Positions 53,962 to 59,331 of a stretch of 64,000 bases of DNA are shown one piece after another. The stretch covers positions 1-64,000 of the forward strand of contig CABJBO010000007.1 of assembly GCA_902363875.1 (NCBI GenBank), written 5' to 3'. Positions within the stretch are counted from its first letter, which is position 1. Each line of letters begins with the position of its first letter. Source of the DNA: Coriobacteriaceae bacterium. Its GTDB lineage: Bacteria > Actinomycetota > Coriobacteriia > Coriobacteriales > Coriobacteriaceae. The notes under the pieces are model-generated. The model searched no databases. It saw nothing but the letters and a program-made list of their open reading frames with translations, and had not been told where the DNA came from. The translations under genes and the position numbers were made by a program.

Positions 53962-54681
53962 CTACAGTTGACGTAAGCCCTCTTCCAGGCCGGTCTTGCT
54001 GTCGGTCTGGGCGTCGCGCATCTTGATGACGCGGGCGGGGACACCGGCCACGACGGCGCCGGCGGGGACGTCCTCGACGCATACGGCGCCGGCGGCAACG
54101 ACAGCACCCTTGCCCACGCGCACGCCCTCCAGGACCACGGCGTTGGCGCCAATCATGACATCATCCTCGATGATGACGGGCGTGGCGCTCGCGGGCTCAA
54201 CGACGCCTGCCAGCACGGTACCGGCGCCGATGTGGCAGTTCTTGCCCACGGTGGCGCGGCCGCCCAGCACGGCGCCCATATCGATCATGGAGCCCTCGCC
54301 GATAACGGAGCCGATGTTGATGATGGCGCCCATCATGATGACAGCGCGGTCACCGATCTCGACGCGGTCGCGGATGATCGCGCCCGGCTCAATGCGGGCG
54401 TTTATGCCCTTAAGGTCGAGCATGGGCACGGCGGAGTTGCGGCAGTCGTTCTCCACATCGTAGTAATCGATGGAATCGGCATTGGCATCGAGGATGGCCT
54501 TGAGCTCATCCCAGTCGCCAAAGACGGTCTTGCCACGACGGCCGCCGTAGACGTGCGCATCGCCCCAGGCAACCTTCATGCCGGGCTTCTCGCGCACATA
54601 CAGCTTGACAGGCGTCTTTTTAGGCGCGGTGGCGATGTAATTGATAATCTCCTGGGCATCCATCTCGGCTGCGTTGCTCAT
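53962..54681 (-). CDS. dapH: Tetrahydrodipicolinate N-acetyltransferase
   Basis: 239 aa. A left-handed beta-helix of hexapeptide repeats (about 85-215, including [20 protein letters not shown] and [19 protein letters not shown]) after an N-terminal helical part. It acetylates tetrahydrodipicolinate with acetyl-CoA, opening the N-acetyl branch of the diaminopimelate route to lysine and peptidoglycan. Length and the [13 protein letters not shown] start of the helix match DapH, not DapD. Fourth gene of the lysA-dapA-dapB-dapH unit. Confidence 0.94.
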
Positions 54682-54720: not shown

Positions 54721-55461
54721 TTAGGCAAACATGACCTGGTCGAACGTATAGAAGCCGGGTTCACGGGCGACGAGCTTTTGAGCGGCGGCCAGAGCGCCGT
54801 TGACAAAGATCTGGCGGCTCGTAGCGCGATGGCTAAGCGTGACCTCCTCGTCCTGGCCAAAGAAGCTCACCCCGTGTACGCCGGCGACGGTGCCGCCGCG
54901 CAGCGAGTGCATGCCGATTTCCTTGGGATCGCGAACGCCGCACATGCCCTCGCGACCGTAGACGGGATGATAGCCAGCCTCTGGCTCGGCCTCGACCACG
55001 GCGTCGAGTAGCAGCTTGGCGGTGCCGCTGGGAGCGTCGACCTTTTGGTTGTGGTGCGTCTCGACAATCTCGCAGTCAAAGCCGGGCAGCTCGCGTGTGG
55101 CCTGTGCTACCAGATGACGCAGGGCTGCGATACCGATGGAGTAATTGCCGGAGTGCATGACGCGGACGTTCTGACCAAGCTCGCGCAGGCGGTCCATCTG
55201 ATCGGGTGTGTAGCCCGTGGTGCCCGAGACCAACGCGGCGCCTGTACGCTCGACATAGGCGACGACGGCATCGAAGGTCACGACGTTCGAGAAGTCGATG
55301 ATGACGTCGGCTGCCGGGGCGCTCTCGAGCTCGGACAGGTCAAAACCGATCTGGGCCACGATATCAAAAACGGGCTGCCCGGAGGCGTCGGCAATGCCTT
55401 CGGCGGTAGTGCGGATGAGCGAGCCCATGCGGCCCGTTCCCATAATGACGGTCTTAATCAA
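54721..55461 (-). CDS. dapB: 4-hydroxy-tetrahydrodipicolinate reductase
   Basis: 246 aa. It reduces the DapA product with NAD(P)H. Dinucleotide motif VIMGTGRMGSLI; catalytic His pair and Lys in EIVETHHNQKVDAPSGTA. The start overlaps the dapA stop by 8 bp (translational coupling), and dapH follows 39 bp later. Confidence 0.95.
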   Translation of the reverse strand: MIKTVIMGTGRMGSLIRTTAEGIADASGQPVFDIVAQIGFDLSELESAPAADVIIDFSNVVTFDAVVAYVERTGAALVSGTTGYTPDQMDRLRELGQNVRVMHSGNYSIGIAALRHLVAQATRELPGFDCEIVETHHNQKVDAPSGTAKLLLDAVVEAEPEAGYHPVYGREGMCGVRDPKEIGMHSLRGGTVAGVHGVSFFGQDEEVTLSHRATSRQIFVNGALAAAQKLVAREPGFYTFDQVMFA

Positions 55462-56344
55462 GCAGACCAGCTCCCTTCAGAGCATCGGTAAGTGCGGAAC
55501 GCGTGTCGTCTGCCATGGGGCACAGCGGCATGCGGTAGTTGGCTTCGATCATACCCATCTGGGCGAGTGCTTCCTTGACGGGGATGGGGTTGACCTCGCT
55601 AAAGAGGGCGTTGATGAGCGGCTGGCCGGCAATCTGGATATCGCGGGCGCGCTCCACGTCACCGTCCAGATAGGCGCGGCACATGTCGTGCACGAGCTGC
55701 GGCTGAATGTCTGCCCACACGCTGATGGTGCCCGAGGCGCCCAGGCTCATGAGCGGTACGGTAAGTGCGTCCTCGCCTGAGTACATGCGGAAGTCGTCGG
55801 ACAGCAGGTGAGCGATCTTGGCCGCGTAGGCGACGTTGCCCGAGGCTTCCTTAATACCCATGATGTTGGGGTGCGCGGCCAAGCGCTCTACGTTGCGTTC
55901 GCTGATGCCGCAGCCGCAGCGGCCGGGGATGTTGTACAGGATGCAGGGGATATCTACGGCATCGGCAACGGTCTTAAAGTGCTGGTAGATGCCCTCTTCG
56001 TTGGACTTGTTGTAGTAGGGGGTAATGAGCAGCAGGCCGTCGGCGCCCAGGCCCTGATAGGTGAGCGACTTGGTGAGCATGGTCTGCGTGGAGTTGGAGC
56101 CCGAGCCGGCGATGACGGGGACACGGCCTGCAACCTGCTTGACCACCGCGGCGACAACGGAGTTGTCCTCGTCGTCGGTCATCGTGGCGCTCTCGCCGGT
56201 GGTGCCCAGGGTGAGGATGGCGTCGGTACCGTTTTGCAGGTGGAAATCGATAAGGCGCTCGAGCGCATCGAAGTCGACACTGCCGTCTTTTTTAAACGGC
56301 GTCACAAGGGCGACGATTGAGCCCTCGAGATTGCGGATGTCCAT
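55454..56344 (-). CDS. dapA: Dihydrodipicolinate synthase from an internal start
   Basis: 296 aa if translated from ATG 56344, which has AAGGAG six bases upstream. It condenses pyruvate with aspartate semialdehyde, the first committed step to lysine. Motifs: GTTGESATM, YNIPGRCG with the catalytic Tyr, and Schiff-base lysine in GIKEASGN. The same codons form the C-terminal half of the lysA-dapA fusion frame; whether the free protein, the fusion or both are made is not known. Confidence 0.85.
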   Translation of the reverse strand: MDIRNLEGSIVALVTPFKKDGSVDFDALERLIDFHLQNGTDAILTLGTTGESATMTDDEDNSVVAAVVKQVAGRVPVIAGSGSNSTQTMLTKSLTYQGLGADGLLLITPYYNKSNEEGIYQHFKTVADAVDIPCILYNIPGRCGCGISERNVERLAAHPNIMGIKEASGNVAYAAKIAHLLSDDFRMYSGEDALTVPLMSLGASGTISVWADIQPQLVHDMCRAYLDGDVERARDIQIAGQPLINALFSEVNPIPVKEALAQMGMIEANYRMPLCPMADDTRSALTDALKGAGLLD

Positions 56345-57763
56345 GTTCTTCTCCTTCGCTCTCGCGATTTGGATGCGCTTGTTCCATTGGGCGGCGACCG
56401 CCAGGCGCTCGTCCTGGGCACGATGGCGGGCACTTTCGGCGCGCGACTTGGCCAGCAGCTCGCGGCCGCACGGCAGCACGTCGAGCGTGGCAAAATAGTC
56501 GCTCGGGCGCTCGGCGCGGCGGATGAGGTCGGCCGAGCCGTCGGGGCGCAGCAGCACCTCGGCGGAGCGCAGACGGCCGTTGTAGTTGTAGCCCATGGAG
56601 TAACCATGCGCGCCGGTATCGTGGATCACGAGCAGGTCGCCCATGTCGATATGCGGCAACTCGCGATCAATGGCGAACTTGTCGTTGTTCTCGCACAGAT
56701 TGCCCGTAATGTCGTACGTGTTTGTGACAGGCGCCGCGGTCTTGTCGGAGCCACCCGGCTGGCCCATCACCGTAATGTGGTGGTAGGCGCCATACATGGC
56801 AGGGCGGATCAGATCGACGGCGCTTGCGTCGACACCGATATAGTCCTTGTAGATTTGCTTCTCGTGGATGGCCTTGGTGACCAGGCAGCCGTAGGGGCCC
56901 ATCATAAAGCGGCCCATCTCGGTGCAGATTGCCACATCGCCCATGCCGGCGGGAACCAGAATCTCATCGTATGCCGCGTGCACTCCCTCGCCGATGGCGT
57001 GAATGTCGTTGGCCTGCTGCTCGGGCAGATAGGGGATGCCGACGCCGCCGGACAGATTGATAAAGGCGACGTGTGCGCCGGTCTCGCGCTCCAGGCGCAC
57101 GGCAAGCTCAAAGAGGATGCGCGCGAGCTTGGGGTAGTAGTCGTTGGTGACGGTGTTGCTGGCAAGGAATGCGTGGATGCCAAAGTTTTCGGCGCCCTTG
57201 GCCTTGAGCGTGCGAAAGGCCTCAAAGAGCTGCTCGGTGGTCATGCCGTACTTGGAGTCGCCGGGGTTATCCATGATGCCGTTGGAGAGCTGGAACAGGC
57301 CGCCCGGATTAAAGCGGCAGCTGACCGTCTTGGGGATGGGTCCCGCAACGCGCTCAAAGAACTCGATGTGGCTGATGTCGTCAAAGTTGACGATGGCACC
57401 CAGCTTGTCGGCGAGCTCAAAGTCCGCCGCCGGTGTGTCGTTGGACGAGAACATGATGTCGTGTCCGGTGATGCCCAACGAGCGGGCGATCATGAGCTCG
57501 GTATAGCTCGAGCAATCGCAGCCGCAGCCGTATTCGTTGAGAATGGAGATGAGCGCCGGGTTGGGGTTGGCCTTGACGGCAAAGTATTCCTTAAAGCCCG
57601 GGTTCCATGCAAAGGCGTCGCGCACCTCTTGCATGTTGCGGCGGATACCCGCCTCGTCGTATAGATGAAACGGCGTGGGGAACTGCTTGACGATATGCTC
57701 GAGCGTCTCCTTGTCCACAAACGGCTGCTTGGCCGCATATGCCTCGTTGGGGGTCAATGCCAT
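55454..57763 (-). CDS. lysA-dapA: Diaminopimelate decarboxylase fused in frame to DapA
   Basis: One open frame of 769 codons. Residues about 1-465 are diaminopimelate decarboxylase, a PLP enzyme forming lysine: PLP lysine Lys64 in FAVKANPNP, LSGGVGIPY, GNLCENNDKFA with the catalytic-type Cys, and HDTGAHGYSMGYNYNG. Residues 474-769 are a complete dihydrodipicolinate synthase. I read through the joint (QIARAKEKN then MDIRNLEG) and found no stop codon. A strong internal ribosome site (AAGGAG) precedes Met474, so dapA could also be made alone. A lysine riboswitch lies in the leader. The start ATG 57763 has only a modest GAGG upstream. Confidence 0.88.
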   Translation of the reverse strand: MALTPNEAYAAKQPFVDKETLEHIVKQFPTPFHLYDEAGIRRNMQEVRDAFAWNPGFKEYFAVKANPNPALISILNEYGCGCDCSSYTELMIARSLGITGHDIMFSSNDTPAADFELADKLGAIVNFDDISHIEFFERVAGPIPKTVSCRFNPGGLFQLSNGIMDNPGDSKYGMTTEQLFEAFRTLKAKGAENFGIHAFLASNTVTNDYYPKLARILFELAVRLERETGAHVAFINLSGGVGIPYLPEQQANDIHAIGEGVHAAYDEILVPAGMGDVAICTEMGRFMMGPYGCLVTKAIHEKQIYKDYIGVDASAVDLIRPAMYGAYHHITVMGQPGGSDKTAAPVTNTYDITGNLCENNDKFAIDRELPHIDMGDLLVIHDTGAHGYSMGYNYNGRLRSAEVLLRPDGSADLIRRAERPSDYFATLDVLPCGRELLAKSRAESARHRAQDERLAVAAQWNKRIQIARAKEKNMDIRNLEGSIVALVTPFKKDGSVDFDALERLIDFHLQNGTDAILTLGTTGESATMTDDEDNSVVAAVVKQVAGRVPVIAGSGSNSTQTMLTKSLTYQGLGADGLLLITPYYNKSNEEGIYQHFKTVADAVDIPCILYNIPGRCGCGISERNVERLAAHPNIMGIKEASGNVAYAAKIAHLLSDDFRMYSGEDALTVPLMSLGASGTISVWADIQPQLVHDMCRAYLDGDVERARDIQIAGQPLINALFSEVNPIPVKEALAQMGMIEANYRMPLCPMADDTRSALTDALKGAGLLD

Positions 57764-57768
57764 GTCCC

Positions 57769-57836
57769 GTAAACCTCGCTATCCAGACGGCGCCATCTGC
57801 GCATCGAATCCGCATAGCGTGGACCCAATGTCCGGA
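57769..57836 (-). promoter_or_regulatory. Expression platform hairpin of the lysine riboswitch
   Basis: On the minus strand CGCTATCC-GGAC and GTC-GGATAGCG can pair across about 65 nt, ending next to the GAGG before lysA. No U-tract follows, so control of ribosome access is more likely than termination. Confidence 0.55.
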
Positions 57837-57857
57837 TAGCGCTCCCGCATTGCTGCA

Positions 57858-57992
57858 GACAGTCCTGCGGGTGTTTCCCGCAGGCCCACCAGGTTGTTCG
57901 TGCCTGAAAAACCCAGTTCGGCGGGTTTCGCCTCCCCGCGGGGTCAAAGCCTGCCGGCTCGCCCGCGGCTCTTCGTGCCCGCGCCTCTATCA
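57858..57992 (-). ncRNA. Lysine riboswitch (L box)
   Basis: On the minus strand, conserved blocks appear in order: AGAGGCGCG, GGGGAGGCGAAACCCGCCGAA, a CTGGGTTTTTCAG-type arm, GGTGGGCCTGCGGG and the ending GCAGGACTGTC. These match the five-helix lysine aptamer as I know it (for example the CCGCCGAA and GGACTGTC blocks). It lies about 95 nt upstream of lysA. Lysine binding would lower expression of lysA-dapA-dapB-dapH. Confidence 0.9.
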
Positions 57993-58143
57993 AGTGGTAA
58001 CGACCCTACCACGTTGCACTTTACCAAACAAGAGTATTCGTATATAACGTTTAAAAACTGCAGGGATATGCTAGAAACAAGGGCGTCACAATTTTGCATC
58101 ACAATAGTGTGTGAATGGATATGCCCCCATGAAAGGATCCTTT

Positions 58144-59331
58144 ATGACCGAGCTCCAAGAACTTCGTCGCTATCGTCGCGACCTGCATCGCATTCCGGAG
58201 CTCGATTTCGATCTTCCTCAAACCATAGCCTATATCGAGGGCGTACTCGCCTCGCTTGCCTGTGAAGTGATCCATCCGTGTCCCAGCTGCGTCTGTGCTT
58301 TCTTCGACGCTGGCACGGGCACCGCGCATGCCACGGCGATTCGCGCCGATATGGACGCGCTGCCTATCGCGGAGGCGACGGGTGCGGCCTTTGCCTCGAC
58401 GCATCCCGGAAAGATGCACGCTTGCGGACACGATGGACACATGGCCATGGCACTTGCGGCGGCGACCTTTGTCGATCGCACGATTCGTGAACAGCCGGGT
58501 GCCATTAGGCGCAACGTGCTCTTTGTGTTCCAGCCTGCCGAGGAGACGACCGGTGGCGCCAAGACGGTGTGTGAGAGCGGCGTATTCGAGCGCTACGGGG
58601 CGGATCGCATCTTTGGCTTCCACGTATGGCCCGACCTGCCTGCGAAAACGTTGGCGAGCTGTTCCGGTCCGCTGCTGGCGCGCTCAAGCGAGACGCACAT
58701 TCATATCCATGGCGCGAGCATCCATATCGCCAAGACCTACGGCGTTCCGGTCGAGGAATCGCATGATGCCGCGCTGGCAGCGGCCAAGTTCTTGGTTTCC
58801 GAGCGCGCGCTCATGGACGAGTTGGGTGCCGACGAGCCCTGCATTGGTAAGTTCGGCCTGCTGCAGGCCGGCACCGTCTGCAATGCGGTGGCGGGGGAGG
58901 CCCATGTGGCTGGCAGCCTGCGCGTGTTTACGGACGGTATGTTCGACCGTGCGCGCGAGGGCGTGCGCCGCGTGTTGGACGAGGCCTGCGCCGCAACAGG
59001 CTGTACGTACGATCTCGACTTTGCCGAGGGCTATCCGCCGGTCGATAACGACCCCGAGCTGTTCGCCCACATTGCGCCTGCCTTGTCCGAGTTGCAACTT
59101 GTGGACGAGCCGCTGCTAATCGCCGAGGATTTCGCGTTCTATCAGCGTCATCTGCCGGGCGTATTCTTCTTGCTGGGCACGGGCGTGCCGGAGGGTCAAG
59201 AAAACCCGAGCGATTCGGATGGCTGTCCCACCTATGCCATGAGCGCTCTGCATACTGATACCATGCTCTTTGACGAGGAAATCCTACTCAAAGGCCTCGA
59301 TGTCTACAAACGATTGCTTGACTTGGAGTGA
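58144..59331 (+). CDS. M20-family N-acyl amino-acid deacetylase, probable N-acetyl-diaminopimelate deacetylase
   Basis: 395 aa. M20 metallopeptidase/amidohydrolase with metal motif MHACGHDGHM (His92-His99), the acid pair QPAEETTGG and a dimerisation domain. The FDxGTGTAHATAIRADMDALP stretch is typical of the IAA-amidohydrolase/DapE-like deacetylase branch. Divergent from the lysA-dapA-dapB-dapH unit, it could remove the acetyl group from N-acetyl-LL-diaminopimelate and complete that route. AAAGGA precedes ATG 58144. Confidence 0.87.
   Translation: MTELQELRRYRRDLHRIPELDFDLPQTIAYIEGVLASLACEVIHPCPSCVCAFFDAGTGTAHATAIRADMDALPIAEATGAAFASTHPGKMHACGHDGHMAMALAAATFVDRTIREQPGAIRRNVLFVFQPAEETTGGAKTVCESGVFERYGADRIFGFHVWPDLPAKTLASCSGPLLARSSETHIHIHGASIHIAKTYGVPVEESHDAALAAAKFLVSERALMDELGADEPCIGKFGLLQAGTVCNAVAGEAHVAGSLRVFTDGMFDRAREGVRRVLDEACAATGCTYDLDFAEGYPPVDNDPELFAHIAPALSELQLVDEPLLIAEDFAFYQRHLPGVFFLLGTGVPEGQENPSDSDGCPTYAMSALHTDTMLFDEEILLKGLDVYKRLLDLE

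Follow-up and report, generated by a model that had tools for sequence, protein, structure and literature searches.

The window analysed here, the whole stretch of 64,000 nucleotides of contig CABJBO010000007.1 from a Coriobacteriaceae bacterium (assembly GCA_902363875.1), carries a lysA-dapA gene in which diaminopimelate (DAP) decarboxylase, LysA, and 4-hydroxy-tetrahydrodipicolinate synthase, DapA, share one frame of 769 codons without an internal stop: the frame opens with the ATG at 57763 of the minus strand and its stop codon ends at 55454, and the same coordinates read on the plus strand give a translation with stops. This arrangement had been proposed in an earlier note made from the letters alone, and it was borne out, with the minus strand as the coding strand. 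The frame probably encodes a genuine bifunctional protein, composed of LysA, a linker of about 35 residues that is probably helical, and DapA, and operating as proposed below. The sequences themselves establish that the open frame is conserved, that the linker is under amino-acid selection, that the fused sequences form one clade and that a lysine riboswitch lies upstream.

Profile searches placed LysA at residues 15-425 and DapA at residues 481-763 of the fused frame, which contains the Pfam domains PF02784, PF00278 and PF00701. By calculation the fusion has a mass of 83.9 kDa and DapA starting at Met474 one of 31.7 kDa; the earlier note gave about 84 and 32 kDa. The closest named relatives of the locus were strains of Collinsella aerofaciens.

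The full-length frame was found in 21 of 43 genomes of the same genus, at 97-98% identity; 20 of these copies were stop-free and one, in genome G006, carried a TAG at codon 439, directly after LysA residue 438. Separate lysA and dapA genes occurred in 12 of the 43 genomes; at all 12 joints a stop closed lysA, with 1 to 216 bases between its end and the start of dapA. Comparing the joint in relatives had been suggested as a check on the fusion, and the outcome is in agreement with it. The other ten genomes had no close copy of lysA or of this dapA. Seven of these ten (G015, G017, G022, G023, G025, G027, G028, G033, G038 and G043) are at most 1.9 Mb in size, one of the seven being only 72% complete; the ten suggest that lysine synthesis was lost within the genus.

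Within the order, 158 of 347 genomes gave a match at E<=1e-100. At least 52 rows spanned both parts: 20 were stop-free, G006 had one stop and 31 had one or more; among the matches listed, the same 20 genomes were the only stop-free ones of the order. Joints were read in genomes with two separate rows, namely the 12 of the same genus and 14 within a set of 20 stretches, the remaining six stretches belonging to the 31 joined rows bearing stops. A stop lay between the genes in 19 of the 20 stretches; the other had no dapA inside the stretch. Both genes were present in 35 of the 80 retained named loci, 12 of them fused and 23 with a stop, Kiritimatiellales included. In a distant phylum, lysA is followed by dapA in L073, L078 and L105 (Kiritimatiellales) and in L080 (Verrucomicrobia); about 20 bases or fewer separate the lysA stop from the inferred start of dapA in L078, L105 and L080, and 97 bases in L073.

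Among database proteins, the cluster P0001 (769 aa) has the same architecture and 44,670 member sequences, although fragments may be among the members; among the matches listed it carries no name in the public database. The search for DapA in long proteins covered the best 120 of 224 matches and reaches relatives that share words with this DapA; LysA-DapA fusions in distant phyla, beyond its reach, are possible. Two further proteins, P0029 and P0030 (770 aa), represent a second fused lineage with a diverged linker, known from protein sequence alone.

That an assembly or sequencing artefact hides a real stop or frameshift is a general risk of draft assemblies, and a missed stop at the joint had been named beforehand as the observation that would overturn the fusion. 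It is exceedingly improbable here: besides the window, 20 genomes have the stop-free frame, some of them in contigs of 1.4-2.4 Mb, and they differ from the window by 111-197 bases. A missed stop or frameshift was rejected on these grounds for the clade as a whole, in which the frame is conserved.

No counterpart of the linker, in length and sequence, was found in the unfused relatives that were read. An open linker frame alone is weak evidence, as shuffling the 38-codon linker 20,000 times left it stop-free in 43% of cases. It amounts to more than chance because it is conserved: 20 of the 21 copies are stop-free, and in every one of 400 neutral simulations on the 22-tip tree more than one tip carried a stop. 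For linker codons 439-464 of 22 sequences (the 21 genomes and the window), nonsynonymous diversity (pN) was 0.025 and synonymous diversity (pS) 0.307, a ratio of 0.083; the corresponding ratios (piN/piS) in the same set were 0.051 for LysA and 0.035 for DapA. The linker ratio was 0.087 once the G006 stop codon was counted. The other forward frames gave 2.88 and 4.27, and one reverse frame was also low, at 0.20, as expected of a frame whose third positions occupy the same columns. None of the 400 simulations reached the observed ratio, the lowest being 0.68. These values indicate that the linker is translated in the LysA frame and that its residues matter; with no stop after it, the product must continue into DapA.

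A longer DapA starting within the linker was considered as the cause of this constraint and rejected: codons 431-473 contain no in-frame start codon (ATG, GTG or TTG) in 17 of the 22 sequences, the window among them, and a single in-frame TTG in the other five. Between the fused lineages, most of the final 16 residues of the linker are conserved (12 of 16 in P0029, 11 of 16 in P0030), with 4 of 16 kept in the middle of the linker for each. In an AlphaFold model of LysA plus linker, residues 431-472 form one long helix of moderate confidence, the alignment rows being mostly without linker. This model was used in place of the whole-chain model, which was poor in the LysA half owing to a poor mixed alignment.

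In a tree of LysA plus DapA with 54 tips (unrooted file), the 25 fused sequences formed one clade with a support of 0.97; the 23 sequences of aerofaciens type were grouped with a support of 1.0, P0029 with P0030 with 0.71, and G006, inside the fused clade, with locus L002 with 0.9. The single clade and the position of G006 point most likely to one fusion event, in the common ancestor of the C. aerofaciens complex and the sister lineage of P0029 and P0030, followed by a later stop in G006. The stop that ends lysA in relatives would have been lost, so that lysA reads in frame through the spacer into dapA. The tree excludes five database proteins (760-764 aa) that probably derive from chimeric contigs. 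In P0032 (760 aa) the middle is that of C. aerofaciens and the ends are not; P0012, P0014, P0024 and P0027, judged from their first 30 residues and a stretch near 396-445, start like other bacteria and become C. aerofaciens in type before the linker. In addition, two genomes of the fused clade (loci L043, G008:C5, and L044, G004:C2) contain pieces of a second lysA and dapA about 3 kb apart; these pieces are 69% identical, with one stop in the dapA piece, and are perhaps the remnant of an acquired or older operon.

The earlier note described a perfect internal ribosome site before Met474, a fair word for the six-base match AAGGAG found there. All 22 sequences, the window included, have the motif, its spacing of six bases and ATG474. 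With a general anti-Shine-Dalgarno sequence, not one taken from this genome, the duplex energy at ATG474 was -9.3 kcal/mol, the lowest of the 60 AUGs in any frame of the operon coding sequence; the starts of lysA, dapB and dapH gave -7.1, -7.9 and -8.9 kcal/mol. The frame thus has what a dual-product gene would be expected to have by sequence, an in-frame start with a good ribosome site. RNA folding at the lysA and dapA starts showed nothing unusual. The sole promoter-like site, at 57717-57690 of the minus strand, lies close to the lysA start, and this number is within chance; none was found near the dapA start. LysA should be made only as the fusion because the frame has no stop, which leaves free LysA as no translation product, and free DapA should also be made, from the Shine-Dalgarno site before Met474. 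This sharpens the statement of the earlier note that the cell may make the fusion, free DapA or both.

Several observations weigh against the reading of the frame as a bifunctional protein with a second start. The LysA part scored 271.1 bits against TIGR01048, below the curated cutoff of 297.9. The neutral simulations ignore recombination. The predicted linker helix had predicted local distance difference test values of 72-82, taken by tens over residues 431-470, and of 38-48 in the whole-chain model. Conservation of the Shine-Dalgarno motif can partly be put down to codon usage and is no proof of selection for the site: at invariant columns of these genes AAG accounts for 499 of 572 lysine codons and GAG for 561 of 726 glutamate codons, the same fixed codon occurring in 9 of 26 lysine and 12 of 33 glutamate columns. 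Finally, the fusion could be non-essential, as it is broken in G006 by the TAG and in protein cluster P0122 (490 aa, 353 member sequences) by a linker frameshift, the tail of P0122 fitting another frame of the linker and dapA start at 27 of 30 residues; either breakage could be a sequencing fault.

Both breakages leave LysA whole and, if real, would remove fused DapA, so dapA would need its own start. They hint that free DapA may suffice, a stronger hint of free DapA than the conservation of the Shine-Dalgarno site. Cluster P0121 (497 aa, 71 members) was also considered as a linker frameshift and rejected, its tail fitting no frame of the linker or dapA (best 6 of 30 residues); its sequence is that of a fused-type LysA up to a point within the linker, where an unrelated tail takes over through a rearrangement or an assembly fault. 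P0125 (459 aa), a sister-lineage protein, breaks off partway through the linker, possibly at a contig end, and was left uncounted as a breakage.

The breakages would also suit an account in which the fusion is a by-product with almost no selective effect, due to chance loss of the stop: the tail is harmless, free DapA does the work and tethering has no metabolic role. The divergence of the linker middle between the two fused lineages fits this account, as does the lack in DapA of the residues for a lysine feedback that would reward tethering (see below). The linker ratio of 0.083 is, however, far from neutral, its last 16 residues are largely kept across lineages, and the 353 members of P0122 stand against the 44,670 of P0001. 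We regard this account as plausible although the less probable one. It is disfavoured by the linker constraint and is possible for the tethering itself, because the constraint may only keep the linker soluble or its ends well folded.

The TIGR01048 scores were 268-275 in all six related genomes examined, and the strict label of this part is LysA-like; the name LysA rests on residues, fold, operon and sole candidacy. Residues K64, H197, G239, G240, E282, G284, R285, C357, E358 and Y394, which we take to be the pyridoxal phosphate (PLP) lysine and substrate-site residues, were invariant in 40 of 40 aligned relatives, a mild test as all 40 are at least 64% identical. The motif CENND stands where solved 2yxx has CESGD. 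The best solved matches were DAP decarboxylases, both by sequence (1e-44, with the relative P0139 as query) and by fold (4e-31, TMt 0.85), D-ornithine/D-lysine decarboxylases following from rank 7 of the fold search. Only one LysA-like match per genome was found in six of six genomes examined of the 21, and the gene lies alongside a lysine riboswitch, dapA, dapB and dapH. The LysA part is likely to be active, probably as a DAP decarboxylase.

The DapA part scored 336 bits against TIGR00674 (cutoff 206) and shared 45% identity with E. coli DapA across 289 residues. The five catalytic residues listed in the available text of PMC5109050, E. coli T44, Y107, Y133, R138 and K161, are kept as T521, Y584, Y610, R615 and K638, and the part is likely to be active.

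Joining for faster feedback, with lysine from LysA acting at once on the tethered DapA, was also weighed. This rationale has been published for the aspartokinase-LysA fusion, which has the same end enzyme (PMC1885841, available part); DapA is a known lysine target, and Asn80 and Tyr106, lysine contacts in E. coli DapA according to the text available from PMC11201819, are kept as N557 and Y583. Against this, E. coli His53, His56 and Glu84 are replaced by Asp530, Asp533 and Thr561. In the available part of PMC5109050, His or Glu at position 56 marks lysine-sensitive and Lys or Arg insensitive enzymes; Asp falls outside this rule. According to the review PMC10464499, in its available text, lysine inhibition is lost completely in H56K and E84T; the review ascribes these changes to the enzyme of C. 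glutamicum, which it describes as insensitive in another place. The pattern of a lysine-inhibited DapA, His or Glu at 56 together with Glu84, was not found in this protein. Feedback fits poorly as the reason for joining, because Asp533 and Thr561 stand in place of His56 and Glu84, and we judge it unlikely.

Control by the riboswitch is more likely than DapA feedback. The lysine riboswitch (RF00168, 79.7 bits against a gathering threshold of 30) ends 65 bases upstream of the fused gene start, and one precedes lysA in 12 of 13 related loci, fused and unfused; L069 (Collinsella tanakaei An791) was the only locus of the 13 without a match upstream of lysA. As the riboswitch occurs in fused and unfused loci and in operons in print (PMC5584792, available part), this control is older than the fusion.

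The proposed mechanism is as follows. Each ribosome that finishes lysA would make the 84 kDa fusion, and the old dapA ribosome site, now within the frame, would still yield free 32 kDa DapA from the same transcript. Because LysA forms dimers with shared active sites and DapA usually forms tetramers, the fusion by itself could build large cross-linked assemblies, an effect that free DapA would dilute. Fused and free DapA subunits would mix in the DapA tetramer, tethering LysA without endless cross-linking, and supply would be set chiefly by the riboswitch, because DapA lacks two residues tied to lysine inhibition.

A further step, which we offer tentatively and as a whole consider rather unlikely, is a self-diluting scaffold. 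Initiation at each of the two starts of one mRNA would fix the proportion of LysA-DapA to free DapA. Mixed DapA tetramers would bear LysA modules in controlled number, held on long helical arms, so that the lysine branch begins and ends on one riboswitch-controlled particle. Such a particle, if it exists, could recruit the middle enzymes or balance cell-wall DAP against lysine. A single chain cut by a protease in the linker, with the working enzymes separate, would be suited by a long charged linker between two folded parts; no counter-evidence was found and cleavage motifs were not looked for, and we hold this to be improbable.

The lysine operon of the window runs in the order riboswitch, lysA-dapA, dapB and dapH. 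Diverging from it, an M20-family amidohydrolase (TIGR01891, 215.6 bits) is encoded on the plus strand at 58111-59331; it could be the N-acetyl-DAP deacetylase expected alongside dapH.

Table 1. Features of the lysA-dapA locus in the window, with the basis for each assignment.
Feature	Position	Strand	Basis
lysA-dapA fused frame, 769 codons, no internal stop	55454..57763	-	Frame and comparison with homologues
LysA part, residues 1-438, PLP-dependent diaminopimelate decarboxylase	56450..57763	-	TIGR01048 271 bits, PF02784, PF00278, AlphaFold
Linker, residues 439-473, predicted helical	56345..56449	-	piN/piS, neutral simulation, model helix
Internal Shine-Dalgarno AAGGAG, 6 bases before ATG474	56351..56356	-	Conservation and duplex energy
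DapA part, residues 474-769, 4-hydroxy-tetrahydrodipicolinate synthase, own ATG predicted usable	55454..56344	-	TIGR00674 336 bits
Lysine riboswitch aptamer	57829..57997	-	RF00168, 79.7 bits (gathering 30), full model 1-182
dapB, TTG start, 8-base overlap with the end of the fused frame	54721..55461	-	TIGR00036 176.5 bits (cutoff 122)
dapH (tetrahydrodipicolinate N-acetyltransferase), next same-strand gene	53962..54681	-	TIGR03532 344 bits (cutoff 231.75)

LysA closes the lysine branch and DapA opens it, and by the known pathway they have no intermediate in common; simple channelling between neighbours therefore cannot explain their joining. Both enzymes supply or consume cell-wall DAP, so that their balance bears on growth. 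The fused gene occurs throughout a clade of a bacterium common in the human gut, and the unfused relatives and apparent breakages available for comparison make the purpose of the fusion testable. Annotation by one enzyme per gene, and metabolic models, may misread such a gene.

No LysA-DapA fusion was found among the papers listed by searches of the open-access literature aimed at such fusions or at Collinsella lysine genes, subscription journals being mostly outside this scope; this agrees with the earlier note, which knew of none. The pairing is apparently undescribed, although the kind, a bifunctional biosynthetic enzyme, is known. Among described systems, the aspartokinase-LysA fusion of Xanthomonadaceae (ask-lysA; PMC1885841, available part) comes nearest: there too, LysA is linked, in one chain with two catalytic modules, to an enzyme from early in its pathway. 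The partner there is aspartokinase, N-terminal of LysA, whereas here it is DapA, C-terminal of LysA. The NCBIfam profile of the aspartokinase-LysA family, NF006515, matched only residues 27-405, over profile positions 500-859, which match LysA, and with 175 bits where the cutoff is 802; its aspartokinase module was absent. The gene order and the lysine riboswitch are those of the lysA-dapA-dapB(-dapD) operons described for the same order, Coriobacteriales (PMC5584792), in which Table 1 gives riboswitch-controlled operons for Atopobium parvulum and Slackia heliotrinireducens; those are listed as separate genes, and the word 'fused' is absent from the available part of the text.

Among database proteins, DapA is also joined to a pathway enzyme in the DapB-DapA proteins P0035, P0036, P0037, P0058, P0065 and P0070. 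The partner in these is DapB, and among the matches listed five of the six clusters are single-member, so that assembly faults are possible. In E. coli, infB, cheA and clpA have an internal start that gives a full-length and a short product. The lysA-dapA frame resembles them as one frame with a second in-frame start inside, and differs from them in that the short product of its putative internal start would be the whole second enzyme.

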